NCBI RefSeq assembly: GCF_001027285.1
Contig: NZ_CP011509.1
Location: 1,620,501 to 1,684,500, forward strand
Length of the DNA: 64,000 nt
Direction of reading: 5' to 3'
Source: Archangium gephyra
GTDB taxonomy: Bacteria; Myxococcota; Myxococcia; Myxococcales; Myxococcaceae
Shown in pieces: positions 4,654 through 12,140 of this stretch (position 1 is the first letter of the stretch; each line of letters opens with the position of its first letter). Made by a program: the position numbers and the translations under genes. The notes below the pieces were generated by a model. It saw only the letters and a list, made by a program, of their open reading frames with translations, made no database searches and had not been told where the DNA came from.

Positions 4654-5385
4654 CTACATACCCTGGAACGTGCGCGTCCAGGCCCGCAACCGCCGCTGCA
4701 GCGCGGTGAGTGTCCAGAGGTCCGCCGGGTTGTCCGGGGCCACGGCCGCGAGCGCCCGCTCCACATGGGGCAGGGCACCAGGCTCGCCCCATTCGGAGAG
4801 CCGGCGCAGGGCGGACAGCGAGGGGCCCACCTCCAGCGCGGCCAGCAACGTGTGCACCACGCGGGGGCTGCGCTCGCGGCACAGCCGGTCCACCGCCTCG
4901 TGCCGCTCCTCGAAGGAGGACTCGGGGTGCAGCAGCACCGCGGAGAGCGCCTGGAAGGTCTCTTCCGGCAACAGCGGCTGGGGCGCCGGGTGGGGCCAGT
5001 GCTCGAGCGTGATGCCGGTGGGCCCCGCCGCGCTGCACTCGCGTTTCACCCCGTCCTCACCGAGCAGCTCCAGCAGCTTCCCCGGAGAGGGCGTGCCCGC
5101 CTCCAGCACCCGCCGGGCCCGCGGGGTGAGCGCCGCCGAGTGCCCGAGCAGGTGCAGGCGCAGCACGGACACTTCTTCCTGCGCGCAGGCCTCCTTCTCC
5201 ACCCGCTTCCACTTCACGAAGACCTCGGCGAGCCCCCGCTCGTGCACGTACCAGCGGTACTCCAGCCACACGGCGCTCAGGCGCTCGTCGAAGCGGGAGT
5301 CCTCGGGCTCGTACATCCGGGCGGCGCCCTCCTCCACACCCTGGAAGGAGGTGTCCAGCAACGCCTGCACGTGGCTCAATCGCAT
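4654..5385 (-). CDS. Hypothetical protein, HEAT-like
   Basis: 243 residues, unrecognised. It is soluble, without signal peptide or membrane segment. The C-terminal half has helix pairs such as [32 protein letters not shown] and [16 protein letters not shown], which look like HEAT/armadillo repeats of about 35 residues. The ATG at 5385 has no strong ribosome-binding site. The gene directly precedes gloA (5 bp), so the two are probably co-transcribed. Codon use is normal for the window. Confidence 0.65.
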
Positions 5386-5491
5386 GGGGGCAAGGCGCAG
5401 TGTGCCATGAAAGGCCGCTCGACGGCGCCGGGCGGGAGGGCTTTACTCCCGGGGAGGTGGCACCCCGGTGCCCCGCATTCCCTGGAGGAAC

Positions 5492-5989
5492 ATGATGGCG
5501 GATGGTGACAAGGTGATTCTGGCGACGCTCGGCGCCGAGGCGGAGTTGGTGCGGCTCGGGACGGCGGTGGCCGACGTGCTGGCGAAGCTCAACGAGGTCT
5601 CCGCGCAGCAGCAGCGGACCATTCTGCAACTCGTGGTGGATGCGCGCGTGGCCAGTGAGTCCGTGCGTGGCCCCACGTCCGAGCCGAAGTCTGCCTCCCT
5701 TCCCCCCATCGAGCCCGCGCAGTCCGTGCCTCCGGCGGAGCGGGCCCCGGAGTCCGGCTCGCCCTCGGCCCACCCCGACGAGGCGCGCGCGCGGGCCCTG
5801 GCCTCCGTCTACGAGGCGGCGGCGCAGGCGCTCGGCCTGGCCTTCCAGAACGCCGTGGCCAACCAGCAGCAACTCAACACCCTGGGGCAGGCGGCGCTGA
5901 GCCAGTCGGCCGTGCTCGTGCTCTCGGCCGGCTCCTCCGGTGAGTCCCAGGGCGCGTCCCAGCCGGCCAGCGTCCTCAAGGCCGGCTGA
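5492..5989 (+). CDS. RebB-like (R-body/killing-trait) protein with duplicated motif
   Basis: 165 residues from the ATG at 5492, preceded by GGAGGAAC. The C-terminal part (residues 104-148) matches the RebB family: VYEAAAQALGLAFQNAVANQ, then QQ, then LxQAALSQ. RebB proteins are building blocks of refractile R-bodies, coiled protein ribbons first studied in Caedibacter. An N-terminal segment (N34 to S55) contains a second, degenerate copy, NEVSAQQQRTILQLVVDARV, that aligns with N120-V141. A Pro/Ser-rich linker (about 60-98) joins them. It is a single gene, with no other reb-like gene in the window, so a role in R-body assembly is only inferred. Confidence 0.6.
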   Translation: MMADGDKVILATLGAEAELVRLGTAVADVLAKLNEVSAQQQRTILQLVVDARVASESVRGPTSEPKSASLPPIEPAQSVPPAERAPESGSPSAHPDEARARALASVYEAAAQALGLAFQNAVANQQQLNTLGQAALSQSAVLVLSAGSSGESQGASQPASVLKAG

Positions 5990-6088: not shown

Positions 6089-7162
6089 TCACGGCCCGGG
6101 CTTGCCCGCGCACGACTGGCGGAGCGGCGGGATGGGCCGGCAGATGTGGGAGAGCCCGCAGTAGAAGCGGTTCTCACAGGCTCGCGAGGTGCAATCCTCA
6201 TCCTCTTGCGCGAACCGCCGGCAGGTACCACGCGTCGAGCTGCTGGGGTACGCTCCGTGACAGTAGAGGCCCCAGTCACACTCCAGGTCATGGCGGCATG
6301 AGGCGTCCTCGCCGAGCAGCTCGCGGCAAGTGCCGCGCGTGTAGGGGTCGGCATCACAGAAGAGCTCCTGCTTGCAGTCGCTTTGAATGTGGAGGCCCGA
6401 GTACCGGGTCCTGCAGAAGGCCCCCTGGGTTCTCGGCACCTGGCAGGTGCCTTCGATGCAGACGAGGTTCCAGCGACACGGAGCCTGCGAGAGGCCGCAG
6501 GACTGGCCCAGGGACGCGGCGCGCCGGCAGACCTTGTTGCGCATGTCGCAGAAGAGGCCTGGCGCGCAGGGCCCCAAGCCGAAGACGCCAGCTGACTCGC
6601 AAGTCTGGCCCTCTTCGAGAGGCTTCTGGCAGACGCCTTTGAGAGTGATGAGCCCCTCCTCGCACTGCGTGAGGAGCGAACTCGTCATTCCCTCGCCAGC
6701 CAGGGGCTGGCACGTGCCGCAGGAGGACGAGCTCGAAGTGGTGCAGAAGGAGCGGAGGCCACAATCACCGCTTCTATCGCAGCGCTCGCCGTCCTTCACT
6801 TGACCGAAGAGGAAGCGGCATTCCGCGGACGTTCCCATTTCCTCCATCAGCAGCCGCATGGGCAGCGGGGGCTGGTCGCAGGAACTGGTGCGGATCTTCT
6901 CCAGACATGCCGTGGCTGCCGCCGCGTCATACTGCATCCAGCCGGCTTGGAGGGCCTCGCTGTAACGCGTGGTCAGTGTGTAGAGGTCGATGTGCTGCTG
7001 CAACTGACCGCGCTTGCAGGAGTCCTTGTCGTAAGACACTCCGCAGCGCATGTATTTCTCGCACACGGCCTCGGCGAGCTGCGCCTCGAAGTCCTCTTGC
7101 TTCACGCTGCACGCCGCCAGCCACAACCCCACCACGGCCAGTGCCGTCCGGTACCTGTACAT
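6089..7162 (-). CDS. Cys-rich lipoprotein
   Basis: 357 residues from the ATG at 7162 (MYRYRTALAVVGLWLAAC, lipobox LAAC at Cys18). The mature protein has more than 30 cysteines arranged as repeats of the type GExCDRSGDCGLRSFC, GQTCESAG.....C.PGLFCD and GEDASCRHDLECDWGLYC, each 40-50 residues. These resemble Dickkopf-like disulfide modules common in myxobacterial lipoproteins. A helical domain (about 20-120) precedes them. Probably a disulfide-stabilised cell-surface protein; no enzyme motif seen. Confidence 0.8.
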   Translation of the reverse strand: MYRYRTALAVVGLWLAACSVKQEDFEAQLAEAVCEKYMRCGVSYDKDSCKRGQLQQHIDLYTLTTRYSEALQAGWMQYDAAAATACLEKIRTSSCDQPPLPMRLLMEEMGTSAECRFLFGQVKDGERCDRSGDCGLRSFCTTSSSSSCGTCQPLAGEGMTSSLLTQCEEGLITLKGVCQKPLEEGQTCESAGVFGLGPCAPGLFCDMRNKVCRRAASLGQSCGLSQAPCRWNLVCIEGTCQVPRTQGAFCRTRYSGLHIQSDCKQELFCDADPYTRGTCRELLGEDASCRHDLECDWGLYCHGAYPSSSTRGTCRRFAQEDEDCTSRACENRFYCGLSHICRPIPPLRQSCAGKPGP

Positions 7163-7403
7163 GGATGTCTTGCCCCCCCGCGTTGCTTGAGGGCGTACCC
7201 GTAGCACGCATCAGCGCTTGGTGAGGAGGGTGGGGTGGGCACACTGACTCCTGTCGTGCGTTGGACCCCGGTGCCGGGTGGCCTCATCCATCTGGTGGGA
7301 AGCGCATCGCCTTCCAGGTCTACTCCTGGCTCAATGGCACCTACGAGGCGCACCAGTGGGATGAGCCGGAGGACAAGGAGCCGGTCACCGATGAAGAGTC
7401 CGA
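7163..7403. other. Intergenic stretch before the gene remnant
   Basis: Upstream of the Cys-rich lipoprotein (minus strand) and ahead of the decayed gene (plus strand). Short open frames here have no ribosome-binding site. One plus-strand frame reads FQVYSWLNGTYEAHQWDEPE and could be a scrap of a former gene. No promoter motif is obvious. Confidence 0.3.
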
Positions 7404-7768
7404 GCCCGGGCCAGGGCGGTTCTGCAAGGGCTACGTGACACACCGGGGCTGGTCGCGGGAGCGCTCTCCGTCACCTTCGAGAGGCAGGGGACACGGCTCG
7501 TGGCGGAGGTGCGGGCCCGCGACGTGGGCCACCGGGTGCCCACGGGAGATCCCTTCCGCCGTCTGCGCCTGCGGCTGTGTCGCGAACCGGCCTGTGCATC
7601 CCCCATCGCCACGCGCTTCCTGATGCGCCGCTTCGAGATACGGGGCGACGGCTGGACGCTGGGCGAGGACACCACGGTGCCGGTGGAGACGGCATCCACC
7701 CCGCCGGTGCGCCGCCTGGAGTTTCCCCTCACGGCCCCGCTGCCGGAGGTGTTGCACTGGTGGCTGGC
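7404..7768 (+). pseudogene. Remnant of a multiheme cytochrome-like protein, C-terminal part
   Basis: A plus-strand frame without a usable start reads LVAGALSVTFERQGTRLVAE, then VRARDVGHRVPTGDPFRRLRL, then PVRRLEFPLTAPLPEVLHWW. The VGHRVPTGDPFRR phrase and closing beta strands resemble the C-terminal domain of cytochrome c554-type multiheme proteins. No heme-binding CxxCH sites remain in the readable part, and the frame runs into the 3' end of the minus-strand propeller gene. Interpreted as a truncated, non-functional 3' fragment. It could also be a divergent small domain protein that merely looks decayed. Confidence 0.4.
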
Positions 7769-9439
7769 TCAGCGCCGGGTGACGGCGGCCGGGGCGCTCC
7801 AGTCCAACCGCGAGAGTCCGCCCTCCGTACCGAAGAGGACCGTGCCCTCCTCCACCAGCAGCGCGTACACGCGGGGATCCGCGAGCCTCGGCAGCGGGCG
7901 CACCGTGCCGCTCAGCGCGTCGTAGTGCGCCGCGCCCAGCAGCGTGCCCAGCAGCGCTCCACCCGGCACCAGCGCCGCCGACACCACATAGCGGCTCGGC
8001 AGGCCCTCCGCGTCACGCACCCGCGTCCAGTGCTCGCCGTCGAAGTAGCTGAAGCCGTCCTGGCACGTGCCCACCACCGCGCGGCCCTCCGCGTCCGCCG
8101 AGAGCGCCGTCACCCAGTTGTCCGTGAGGTGCTTCCCATCGTGGAAGCGCGTCCACTGCGTGCCGTCCCAGCGCAGCAATCCCCGGTCCTCGCTCGCCAC
8201 CCAGAGGTAGCGCCCGGCACCATGCGCTCCCGAGACATGGCTGCTCCAGCCCTCGGGCAGGGGCAGGCGCCTGGCCAGCTCGAGCGGCTGGCTCGCCCGC
8301 TTCACGAAGGAGGTACCCCGCCCATCCACCAGGGCGACGCCGTCCTCGGTGTCCGGCACCGCCGCCAGCACCGACAGCTTGCCGAGCGCCACCGGGTTGC
8401 GGCCACCGTACGCCATGGGCGTCCACGTCTTCCCGTCATACAGGCCCAGCCCGGACATCGTGGCCACGTAGAGGTTGCGTCCGTCGCTGGCCAGGCCCAG
8501 CACATGGTTGCTCGGGAGGTGGGGCGCGCGGAACGTCCGCCACTTCCCGTCGGGCTGCTCCCAGCACACGCCCTTGTCGAAAGTGCCCACCACCCGCAGC
8601 CCCTGGTGCCGCGTCAGCGCGGTGATGTGGTTGCCGCACAGCTGGCCCGTGGGCGTCACCCGCTTCCACTCCGCGCCCTGACGCCGGAAGACGCCCTGGC
8701 CGCGCGTCCCCACCCACGCCACGCCATTCAACTCGACGGTGCTCGTGGCGCCCGGGGGCAGTGCCCGGGCCTCGCCGGAGCGCTCGCCCCAGTGCCGCGC
8801 CTCGCCCTCGGCACCGAGCACCCGCGTCCCGCCCTTCGTGTCCTTCGCATACGCGAGCGGGCCCGCCGGCACGGGGAGCGAGACGAGCCCCTCGGGCCCC
8901 AGGGTGAAGGCGCCCTCGGTGGTGCCCACGCGCAGCACGCCGTCCGTCTCCTCCAGCATCCGCACCGGCCCCGGCACCGTCCACAGGCGCCCCGCGCCCG
9001 GCGCCATCACCCGCCCGTCCGCCGTGCCCAGGTAGCCCTCGGTGAAGGCCGTGTACGTGGGGCCCGCGGGCAGCCGCTCCGAGAGCCAGCCGAGCGCCGC
9101 GCGGTACAGCTCCGCGTTCATCCCGCCCTCCGCCGGCAGCGCGTGCCACTTCGCCCCCACCACCGGCTGCACGCGCCAGCCCTTGTCCACCGCCACCACA
9201 CCCTCGTCCGTGGCCGCGAAGAGCTCGTCCCCCGCCACCTCCAGCGCGCGGCAGAAGTGACTCGGCAGGCCGTCGTCCACCGTCAGCGTGCGCACCGCAC
9301 GGCCCGCGCGGGTGAAGAGCTCCAGGCCGCCCTCGGTGCAGGCCACCACGTGGCCGTTGTACGTGGCGAGGTCATGCACCAGCTCGGTGTTGGTGACGGT
9401 GGCGGAGAGCAGCGCGGCGGTCAGGGTGGAGAGCAGCAT
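7769..9439 (-). CDS. Secreted beta-propeller protein (two-component-regulator-propeller type)
   Basis: 556 residues; start ATG at 9439, chosen because it gives a short signal peptide (MLLSTLTAALLSATV) and is preceded by a purine-rich stretch. Repeats of about 40 residues carry the propeller signature of a Gly-Leu-Pro turn and a W/Y-rich strand: VDDGLPSHFCRALEVAGDEL, LPSNHVLGLASDGRNLYVAT, LTDNWVTALSADAEGRAVVG and GLPSRYVVSAALVPGG. These resemble the Reg_prop blades found in the sensor part of hybrid kinases, but no kinase domain follows. It lies 154 bp downstream of the VIT/VWA gene on the same strand. Likely an exported ligand-binding protein; ligand unknown. Confidence 0.75.
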   Translation of the reverse strand: MLLSTLTAALLSATVTNTELVHDLATYNGHVVACTEGGLELFTRAGRAVRTLTVDDGLPSHFCRALEVAGDELFAATDEGVVAVDKGWRVQPVVGAKWHALPAEGGMNAELYRAALGWLSERLPAGPTYTAFTEGYLGTADGRVMAPGAGRLWTVPGPVRMLEETDGVLRVGTTEGAFTLGPEGLVSLPVPAGPLAYAKDTKGGTRVLGAEGEARHWGERSGEARALPPGATSTVELNGVAWVGTRGQGVFRRQGAEWKRVTPTGQLCGNHITALTRHQGLRVVGTFDKGVCWEQPDGKWRTFRAPHLPSNHVLGLASDGRNLYVATMSGLGLYDGKTWTPMAYGGRNPVALGKLSVLAAVPDTEDGVALVDGRGTSFVKRASQPLELARRLPLPEGWSSHVSGAHGAGRYLWVASEDRGLLRWDGTQWTRFHDGKHLTDNWVTALSADAEGRAVVGTCQDGFSYFDGEHWTRVRDAEGLPSRYVVSAALVPGGALLGTLLGAAHYDALSGTVRPLPRLADPRVYALLVEEGTVLFGTEGGLSRLDWSAPAAVTRR

Positions 9440-9593
9440 GGGCGTTTCCTCGGGGCGAAGGCGGTGTGCGCCTTGCCTTCGGGTTGCATTGCGAAGTCCG
9501 GGCCAGCGCGTAACCGCCCGGAATCGCTCGGGGGCGTCTCCCTCCGGCCTCGGCGTGTGGCCGGGCGCCAGCACCCGGCGGAGGGCGGGAGGG

Positions 9594-12140
9594 TTACTCC
9601 TCGACGGTGAGGGCGACGCGGACCTTCTCGCGGCGCTCGAAGCGGTTGCCCGCCGCGTCCCGGGCCACGAGCACCAGCTCGTACTCCCCGGGCTCCGTGC
9701 CAGCGGGCACCCCCAGCTCGCGGGTGAAGCGCAGGCCGTCGCGCGTCTCCAGCAGGTGCTGCGCGTCACCGAAGAGCTCGCCGTAGACGCTCACCTCCTT
9801 GGTGGCCTCCACCGCGTCCACCTCCAGCTTCAGCGTCTGGCCGGGCGCCACCAGCCGCGAGGACAGCGTCACCTCGATGTCGTTGCCCTTGGAGTCCAGC
9901 CGGTAGCGCACCTCGCGCCGGCGCACCGTGCCGTCCGGCATCTCCACGGACACCAGCACGTCGTAGTAGCCGTCCTCCACCCAGAGCGGCACCAGGAAGC
10001 GGCCCCGCCAGTAACCCGACACCGTGTCGAAGGTGAGCGGCTTCACCAGCCCGAAGGGGAAGTAGGCCGTCACCCGGCGCGCGTTCCTCGGCGCCACCAC
10101 GGAGATGATGGGGTCTCCCGGCGGAATCTCCTCGCGGCTCAGCTCCCCGGTGACGGCCGCGTACGAGGTGCCCTCGGGCAGCTCCACCGGCACCAGCTCG
10201 CGCACCGTGGCACCGCCGGGCTGCGTGCGCGCCACCTCCTCCACCGCGACGAAGGAGGTGTACTTGCTCATCAGCCCGTACTGGAGCGCCGTGGCGGTGA
10301 TGGCCTGGACGACCTCGGGCTTCTCGCCGCGGTAGTTCTCCACCGTCAGCTCCTCAATTCGCTGGCGCGCCCAGAGGCTGCGCAGGGACGCGTGCTCCGG
10401 CGCGGACTCGGGGAGGGTGAGCGGCACCTCGAAGTGGCGCTCCTGCCCACGCACGCGGCCGGTGATGCGCAGCAGGCCCTGGCCCGTGCCGTGGAACTTG
10501 CCGATGAGGAACAGCGGCTGGCCGCTGAAGAGATCCGGCAGGGTCCGCGGGTAGACGTCCGACACCGGCAGCCCGTCCGTGCCCACGCGCACCGACGTCA
10601 GCACCGGGCCGCGGATGCGCGACTCGAACTCACGGGCCACCTCGTCCTCGGGACGCTTCAGGTTGACGAAGGTGGAGGCGCCGCGCCCCACCTCGCCCAT
10701 CTTCGCGACGAGGTAGCGGTTGACGTCATTGCCCACGCCCACGCTGAAGACACGCGTCTCCTCGCGCAGGTGGGACTGGAGGGTGCCGAGCACCTGGTGG
10801 TCGTTGCCGATGAAGCCGTCCGTCATGAACAGCACCATGCGCAGGCGGGCCGGGTCGTTGGCGGGCACCATGGCCTCCTGGGCCGCGATGCGCACGTCCG
10901 TGCCGCCACCGCCCCAGAAGTTGGCCACGTAGGGCAGGGCGCGCGCCACGTTCTCCGGCGAGGCCGGCACCGCGGCGGGAGCGAACTTCGTCACCTGCGT
11001 GTCGAAGTTGAGCACCTGGAAGGTGTCCTCGGGGTGCAGGTGGCGCAGCACCTCGGCGGTGATGGCCTTGGACTTCTCGATGGGCTGGCCGGACTGCGAG
11101 CACGAGGTGTCGAGCACCAGGTACAGCTCGCGCGGCACCACCTCCTCCTGCTTGGGCGCCAGCTGCGGGTTGAGCAGCACGAGGAAGTAGCCCTCGTCGG
11201 CGCCGGGCTCGCGGTGCACCAGCACGGCCGGGCGGATGAGCGCGTCGGCCACGCGGTACTCCAGGGTGAAGGTCTTGTTGGGGATGCGGTCCTCCGCGGC
11301 CAGCTCCACGCGGGCGCGGCTCGGGCCCTCGCGCGTCGCCGTCACGCGGTGCGACGTGGAGCGCAGCTCGTGGACGGGCACCCCCGCGTCCAGGCGCACG
11401 TGGAGGCGGATGTCGCGGCCACTGCGCACCTCGGGAGGCAGCACCGGCGGGGTGATGCGGCTCGCGTCGGGGACGGTGGTGGTGTCCGGCGCGGTGCCCT
11501 CGCCCTGGCGGAAGGCCAGGGACTCGCCGCCGATGTAGCGCGGGCCCACCGTCATGGGGAAGTTGAAGCTGTACTTGCCGTCCTCGTAGACGAGCCGCTC
11601 CACATAGTGGATGCGCACGCGGAGCTCCTCGCCCGGGAGGATGTTGGCCACCGACTGGGTGAAGAGGTTGGGGCGTTCCTGATCGAGCAGCGCGGCCGTC
11701 TTGCCCTCGGCGCGGGCGCGCTCGTAGGTGTCACGCGCCTGCTCGCGCGTCTGGATGACGCCGCGGATGACGCGCTGGCCGATGACGAGCTCCATGGCGT
11801 CCACGGCGGCCTTCTCCGGCAGCGGGAAGACGTAGAGGGCCTCGAGCGGCTCGGCGTAGGGATTCTCGAAGACCTGGGTGACGGTGACGCTGGCGAGGAA
11901 GCCACTCACCTCGGCGTCGACTTCCGTGTGCTTCAGGCTGAAGCGCTGGGGCTGGGACTCGGGGCAGCCCTGGGCGGAGGCGTGGCGGCGGAGCTTCGCC
12001 ACCAGCGTGCCCTGGGTGATGGCCCCGGAGCTCAGGGGCGAGGCGGAAGCGGGGCAGGGCGTCTCACCGGAGTCCTGCTCCTGGGCGGAGGCGGGGACGG
12101 ACAGAAGACAAACGAAGAGCGCGACGAGTGCGGCTCGCAT
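9594..12140 (-). CDS. VIT and von Willebrand factor A domain protein
   Basis: 848 residues with signal peptide MRAALVALFVCLLSVPASAQ, cleaved after ASA. A VIT domain (about 68-195; SLKHTEVDAEVSGFLASVTV) resembles inter-alpha-trypsin inhibitor heavy chains. A VWA domain follows (about 338-525) with an intact metal-ion site: D344-x-S-x-S348, the GGTD turn near 413-415, and MTDG with D441. The C-terminus (about 700-848) is Ig-like. No LPxTG or C-terminal sorting segment was seen. VIT-VWA proteins are usually exported adhesins or scaffold proteins. Its upstream region holds the four-palindrome array. Confidence 0.9.
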   Translation of the reverse strand: MRAALVALFVCLLSVPASAQEQDSGETPCPASASPLSSGAITQGTLVAKLRRHASAQGCPESQPQRFSLKHTEVDAEVSGFLASVTVTQVFENPYAEPLEALYVFPLPEKAAVDAMELVIGQRVIRGVIQTREQARDTYERARAEGKTAALLDQERPNLFTQSVANILPGEELRVRIHYVERLVYEDGKYSFNFPMTVGPRYIGGESLAFRQGEGTAPDTTTVPDASRITPPVLPPEVRSGRDIRLHVRLDAGVPVHELRSTSHRVTATREGPSRARVELAAEDRIPNKTFTLEYRVADALIRPAVLVHREPGADEGYFLVLLNPQLAPKQEEVVPRELYLVLDTSCSQSGQPIEKSKAITAEVLRHLHPEDTFQVLNFDTQVTKFAPAAVPASPENVARALPYVANFWGGGGTDVRIAAQEAMVPANDPARLRMVLFMTDGFIGNDHQVLGTLQSHLREETRVFSVGVGNDVNRYLVAKMGEVGRGASTFVNLKRPEDEVAREFESRIRGPVLTSVRVGTDGLPVSDVYPRTLPDLFSGQPLFLIGKFHGTGQGLLRITGRVRGQERHFEVPLTLPESAPEHASLRSLWARQRIEELTVENYRGEKPEVVQAITATALQYGLMSKYTSFVAVEEVARTQPGGATVRELVPVELPEGTSYAAVTGELSREEIPPGDPIISVVAPRNARRVTAYFPFGLVKPLTFDTVSGYWRGRFLVPLWVEDGYYDVLVSVEMPDGTVRRREVRYRLDSKGNDIEVTLSSRLVAPGQTLKLEVDAVEATKEVSVYGELFGDAQHLLETRDGLRFTRELGVPAGTEPGEYELVLVARDAAGNRFERREKVRVALTVEE

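Follow-up and report, generated by a model that had tools for sequence, protein, structure and literature searches.

R-bodies are coiled, SDS-insoluble ribbons that serve some bacteria as a killing device. In Rhodospirillum centenum, cysts show a rise of up to 50-fold in an R-body operon (PMC4340629, in excerpt). The primary groups of R-body proteins fall under Pfam family PF11747 (RebB), and the domain criteria used here, namely, a domain 1 with QITD and K-x-x-x-D/E and a domain 3 with NAV and QQQ, were taken from the 2026 Reb survey of Dorr et al. (PMC13430693, in excerpt). Shorter and longer relatives have also been described. Proteins of secondary group S1 and of HP1.4, which are equated in this analysis, have 60 to 80 amino acids and are encoded inside clusters. 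HP1.3, described by Raymann et al., is Reb-like, about twice the usual length, and also encoded in clusters (PMC3583457, in excerpt). RapA of strain PA14 colocalizes with RebP1 (PMC8322103, in excerpt) and is placed by the survey in secondary group S4 (PMC13430693, in excerpt). The synteny analysis of the survey took in only patterns with at least three reb genes (PMC13430693, in excerpt), so Reb genes that occur singly or in pairs lie outside it.

A search of the open-access literature, with subscription journals outside its scope, found no work on R-bodies in connection with Archangium, only Rhodospirillum work on R-bodies in connection with myxobacteria, and, among the papers listed, no mention of "orphan reb" or "single reb gene." Plesiocystis pacifica is a myxobacterium. 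Its Reb genes were among the seeds of the survey (PMC13430693, in excerpt), so Reb was already known from the phylum. Here we describe a Reb-related gene that stands alone in the window, i.e., the whole stretch of 64,000 nucleotides of the Archangium gephyra genome that was analyzed (NZ_CP011509.1, positions 1,620,501 to 1,684,500).

The lone gene, its locus, and other RebB genes

The first-pass annotation had placed a gene for a 165-residue protein at position 5492, with two copies of the RebB core motif and a Pro/Ser linker. The open reading frame is real, and both motifs and the linker were found in it. The start was revised to the ATG at 5495, which is conserved among orthologues and gives a protein of 164 amino acids. 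This start was preferred because GGAGG lies upstream at 5484 to 5488 and because four of the other six orthologues, those of G002, G003, G005, and G008, have no other ATG. The features are as follows.

4654-5385, minus strand: divergent neighbor gene, 243 amino acids, no Pfam match at an E value of 0.01
5459-5472, plus strand: inverted repeat GGCACC-CC-GGTGCC, read by eye, between GGCTTTACT (5439-5447) and the ribosome-binding site
5484-5488, plus strand: ribosome-binding site GGAGG, kept in six aligned upstream regions
5495-5989, plus strand: coding sequence of the two-copy Reb-related protein, 164 amino acids, stop codon TGA included
5495-5662, plus strand: N-terminal half, predicted helix at residues 2-58, diverged motif L-x-x-L-N-x-V-x-x-x-Q-Q-x-x-I-L-x-L
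5663-5773, plus strand: Pro/Ser/Ala-rich linker, no predicted secondary structure from residue 59 on
5774-5935, plus strand: C-terminal half, RebB core (PF11747 positions 15-65), predicted helix at residues 94-145
G000:C1:2572968-2576927 (locus L029, about 6948-10958): cluster of seven RebB genes in the same genome, one Reb with a Pro-rich tail

The inverted repeat may be a hairpin or an operator. The unit of GGCTTTACT followed by the inverted repeat (5439 to 5472) is present in the six Archangium sequences and absent from G008, and in one of the six (G001) the two arms appear by eye to be altered together. An AlphaFold2 model from the single sequence predicts helices at residues 2 to 58 and 94 to 145 with an unstructured stretch between them; helix packing is not readable from it because the mean pLDDT is 63 and the pTM is 0.37.

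Orthologues with full-length matches were found in all six Archangium genomes and in one related metagenome-assembled genome (MAG), G008, and the reading frame is open in 7/7. In an alignment of five of the six orthologues and the related protein of a two-gene locus described below (the pair-locus protein), the four rows from within the genus are 81 to 92% identical to the window protein, G008 is 60% identical, and the pair-locus protein is 29% identical. The motif columns of the N half are invariant across the seven alignment rows. Among the six Archangium orthologues, the C half has a mean identity of 91%, and the linker is the least conserved region (72%). The lone gene is under purifying selection: over the 15 pairs that six Archangium sequences give, mean pN divided by mean pS is 0.41 for the whole gene, 0.24 for the C half, 0.52 for the N half, 0.49 for the linker, and 0.41 for the tail.

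The first-pass annotation had called the C-terminal copy RebB-like, a claim that it tied to a significant RebB match, and the profile search returned one. PF11747 matches residues 97 to 147 of the 165-residue form with 43.1 bits (E = 4.7e-11; curated cutoff, 24), and the scores range from 39 to 46 bits across the seven genomes. At the level of sequence, this match establishes Reb descent for the C half. The match covers profile positions 15 to 65 of 68. The alignment places the domain 3 motifs NAV and QQQ in the C half, and neither it nor the profile match shows a domain 1 with QITD and K-x-x-x-D/E in the lone protein. The first 14 profile positions are missing, and the cluster members in the same genome carry QITDAVTQ or a near variant in the part of the domain that the lone protein lacks. 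In hydropathy profile, the C halves agree with 45 other Reb sequences (r = 0.85). A search of solved structures with one canonical Reb of the A. gephyra genome gave a viral proteinase as its best match (E = 0.13).

The 243-amino-acid neighbor is divergent from the lone gene at 7/7 loci, and its gene was found in 60 of 96 genomes of the family. With a profile of the seven orthologues, we searched as far as 1,500 bases upstream at 30 neighbor loci and recovered the lone gene at the seven known loci only. The next-best match had an E value of 0.077, and diverged orthologues beside the neighbor in other genera were rejected on this result. Since only these 7 of the 30 neighbor loci hold the reb gene, the lone gene either came into this site in the Archangium lineage or was retained there. 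A mobile origin was rejected as well: none of 50,697 phage records matched, and viral contigs yielded no relative. Among the matches listed, no non-Reb gene was common to the lone locus and the reb clusters. Downstream of the lone gene, at 6089 to 7207 of the window, lies a predicted Cys-rich protein with a Dickkopf_N match under its cutoff; it recurs at one of the six other loci compared (56% identity).

RebB matches occur in 10 of the 195 Myxococcota genomes searched. At the locus itself the gene is alone, as the first-pass annotation had it, and no second RebB match was found there in 7/7 genomes. The search for further reb genes did find seven RebB matches elsewhere in the A. gephyra genome (G000), within 4 kb and 0.95 Mb from the lone gene. 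G004 likewise has seven further matches in one cluster. In the other five of the seven carriers (G001, G002, G003, G005, and G008, the last with an assembly that is 86% complete) the lone gene is the sole RebB match; four of the six Archangium genomes show no cluster, and three of these are assembled in one or two contigs.

Two observations concern the surroundings of the A. gephyra cluster. An open reading frame (ORF) resembling an RNA polymerase sigma factor lies on the opposite strand (L029:8942-9697), and similar ORFs occur at the clusters of G100 and Ruegeria. Near the cluster, the gene at L029:4420-5112 has 28% identity over 134 amino acids to the one at L065:11532-12227, which lies by the Eleftheria cluster and is annotated as a glycoside hydrolase domain protein; these two genes may be chance neighbors or cargo.

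A two-gene locus composed of a canonical Reb gene and a gene for a protein of the same design as the lone protein was found in G085 and G004. In G085, a Myxococcaceae MAG whose RebB matches are confined to this locus, the second gene follows the canonical Reb gene after 13 bases and encodes 189 amino acids with the N motif LNRVLELQQQSIL, a Pro/Ala-rich linker, and a RebB half (36.2 bits). In G004 the locus accounts for two more RebB matches, and the second gene (G004:C27:23002-23465, L064) lies in two frames with a break inside the linker, which is either an assembly error or a broken gene. A pattern scan of the genome contigs for the pair-locus protein, a scan whose reach is limited to close relatives, returned only the two known loci.

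Relation of the N-terminal half to the C-terminal half

The first-pass annotation had read the N half as an internal duplicate of the C half. The N-terminal copy has no match to Pfam RebB, and within the window protein the relation is faint: 8% of 2,000 shuffles reach the score of the local alignment between the N half and its own C half (P = 0.08), and the best alignment is in a register other than the annotated one. Across eight proteins, the lowest pairwise P value is 0.0045 (pair-locus protein) and the highest is 0.43 (G005). The duplication gains support when the halves of these eight proteins are compared as profiles. With hhalign, N halves against C halves scored 22.9 (E = 3e-4, 35 columns), a score reached by 0/400 column shuffles and 0/400 heptad-class shuffles, and the alignment falls on L-A-x-x-N-x-V-x-x-Q-Q-Q-x-x-x-L, which is the annotated register. 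N halves against 45 Reb domains scored 12.9, which was reached by 14/400 and 24/400 shuffles.

Profiles were also compared across the two lineages. The profile of the seven lone N halves matched the trimmed C halves of the pair-locus proteins with 18.2 and 14.4 bits (0/500 shuffles each) and the untrimmed pair-locus ORFs with 13.8 and 7.4 bits, the best non-Reb domain scoring 5.5. Conversely, the pair C-half profile matched 7/7 lone N halves with 11.5 to 17.0 bits (0/500 shuffles each). The lone C-half profile gave 8.4 and 8.5 bits with the two pair N halves (0/500 and 2/500 shuffles), and the pair N-half profile gave 5.8 to 9.5 bits with the seven lone C halves (0 to 4 of 500 shuffles). A general Reb profile scored 6.1 and 6.8 bits with the two pair N halves (11/500 and 5/500 shuffles) and was not significant with the lone N halves (3.0 to 4.3 bits, 45 to 132 of 500 shuffles).

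Residue shuffles preserve composition and lose the order of a helix; therefore, heptad-class shuffles, a background of real ORFs, and whole-genome searches were added. The background comprised 3,496 ORFs of at least 40 amino acids, 44 of them labeled Reb. With the lone and pair ORFs removed, the N7 profile ranked one ORF not labeled Reb first, followed by 12 Reb ORFs running; by score, this top ORF is the N half of the split pair gene of G004. With the profile of both pair N halves, few Reb ORFs came near the top (three in the first 40 rows). Among the 45 Reb cores set against shuffled decoys, a P value of 0.05 was reached in 24 with N7 and in 14 with the pair N profile.

A blind search of seven whole genomes with the pair C-half profile, including G004, which is itself a source of that profile, returned 23 matches at E values up to 1. 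All but one of these lie in Reb or lone genes, and the N half was matched in four of the seven lone genes (E = 0.13 to 0.45). Across the 195 Myxococcota genomes, an N-half profile that included both pair-locus N halves gave 19 matches at E values up to 0.1, comprising 9 lone or pair N halves, 1 match to the G085 pair protein within its RebB half (E = 0.038), and 9 others (E = 8e-4 and worse). The nine others were set aside as unrelated, and with them an occurrence of the N half elsewhere in the phylum; the two inspected, one in G020 and one in G083, look like antisense frames across other genes, the latter apparently across a response regulator.

The tree and the hydropathy test used a gapless register set by hand on the N-x-V anchor. 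In a tree of 63 cores and 47 residues, all N halves form one clade (99/100) that groups with the pair-locus C halves (99.8/93), to which the long N-half branches may be drawn; N and C halves jointly are unsupported as a clade (38/55). Hydropathy is uncorrelated between N and C halves (r = 0.08 in lone and 0.06 in pair proteins; permutation P = 0.32 and 0.35), and lone N halves show no clear correlation with pair C halves (r = 0.15, P = 0.17). Between lone and pair genes, N halves correlate with N halves (0.56) and C halves with C halves (0.73). The profiles relate the N half to the C half beyond chance, and hydropathy does not. We read the N half as an old internal duplicate that probably took another face, and the difference in hydropathy means that the copies need not pack alike.

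Proposed function of a Reb core outside a cluster

The explanation we favor, with moderate confidence, is that the lone gene encodes a Reb-derived accessory protein that turned solitary and is kept for a function needing no R-body cluster. The protein would be a diverged member of the Reb family in which two related helices are joined by a flexible linker. The C half would keep the surface by which Reb helices pack, as suggested by its hydropathy (r = 0.85), while the N half, with its different pattern, would bind something else. Beside a canonical Reb, as in the two-gene locus, such a protein may cap, seed, or tether the ribbon in the way that RapA associates with RebP1. By this analogy the pair-locus protein would be an accessory, and the lone gene would have outlived or left its partner, becoming independent in Archangium. 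The partnerless protein would most likely self-associate through its C half, forming a small oligomer or a filament with the N helix on display; it would be a two-ended adaptor and not an R-body. A recruited scaffold, one of the two roles offered by the first-pass annotation, is a candidate role compatible with these data.

It is possible, but in our judgment doubtful, that the gene is a domesticated Reb whose duplicated core left the R-body and became an intracellular polymer or cross-linker of its own in Archangium, with the two-gene locus as a surviving intermediate. If true, this would show how a killing ribbon can become a cellular part.

The lone protein might also be an accessory of ordinary R-bodies that acts in trans on a canonical cluster, with the gene being a remnant in genomes that lack one or the cluster coming and going. 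The A. gephyra genome and G004 carry a seven-RebB cluster besides the lone gene, and the sister gene adjoins a canonical Reb. However, no cluster was found in four of the six Archangium genomes, three of them in one or two contigs, and the gene is conserved, under purifying selection, and fixed in its site, which makes action in trans unlikely.

The other role offered by the first-pass annotation, that of a plain R-body subunit variant, finds no support: the QITD and K-x-x-x-D part is missing, and in five of the seven carriers no other RebB match was found. We consider it improbable that the lone protein builds a short R-body-like ribbon alone, with both halves as subunits of a two-fold repeat. 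The core helix is present in two copies and Reb proteins are known from the literature to polymerize, but the QITD part is missing and the N copy is unlike the C copy in hydropathy.

A further proposal concerns the N half alone, which could be a helix of separate origin that was fused to a Reb core and has its L-N-x-V-QQ likeness by chance. The lack of a Pfam match, the pairwise P value of 0.08, the nonsignificant general Reb profile, and the lack of a common hydropathy pattern would fit this. The cross-lineage profiles and the blind search, with 22 of 23 matches in Reb or lone genes and four lone N halves among them, argue against it, and we give it a low probability. Decay of a leftover from a reb cluster, to which the incomplete domain might point, is very improbable for a gene that is open in 7/7 orthologues and whose mean pN to mean pS ratio is 0.41 for the full length and 0.24 for the C half.

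A conserved solitary Reb offers a single-gene handle on the role of the Reb core outside the ribbon. In G085, the gene pair may constitute a very small R-body system.

Comparison with described Reb proteins

The lone protein shares with the PF11747 R-body proteins of the primary groups (PMC13430693, in excerpt) the domain of its C half with the NAV and QQQ motifs. It differs from them in lacking the QITD/K-x-x-x-D part, in carrying a second copy in front with a linker, and in being solitary. Like the lone protein, the short Reb proteins of S1 / HP1.4 keep mainly the domain 3 motifs; unlike it, they stand inside clusters and have no N copy. Among plasmids, the window protein matched seven Azospirillum records best, though not significantly (E = 0.2), and in the one record checked (H21) the match falls within a 77-amino-acid gene of the S1 / HP1.4 sort; the pair-locus protein had no plasmid match.

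RapA and the S4 proteins of group 2 clusters have a long N-terminal region, a Pro-rich stretch, and a Reb-like part behind it, and they are ribbon accessories. An S4-like protein of Ruegeria, SPO_RS23395, which was assigned to S4 here, has a weak Reb core (15.3 bits, 0/300 shuffles). In comparisons of this one protein with the profiles N7, C7, and Cg, the scores were reached by 178, 240, and 111 of 300 shuffles, respectively, and with Ng by a borderline 17/300. Because even this best value leaves no significant relation of the N regions, the likeness to S4, judged from sequence, is probably one of plan and not of membership. The gene of a RapA / S4 accessory would be expected alongside structural reb genes; the lone gene is not so placed, and its sister gene in G085 and G004 is. 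That second gene, whose product has 189 amino acids in G085, encodes the same order of N copy, linker, and RebB half at 29% identity and, unlike the lone gene, stands behind a canonical Reb gene.
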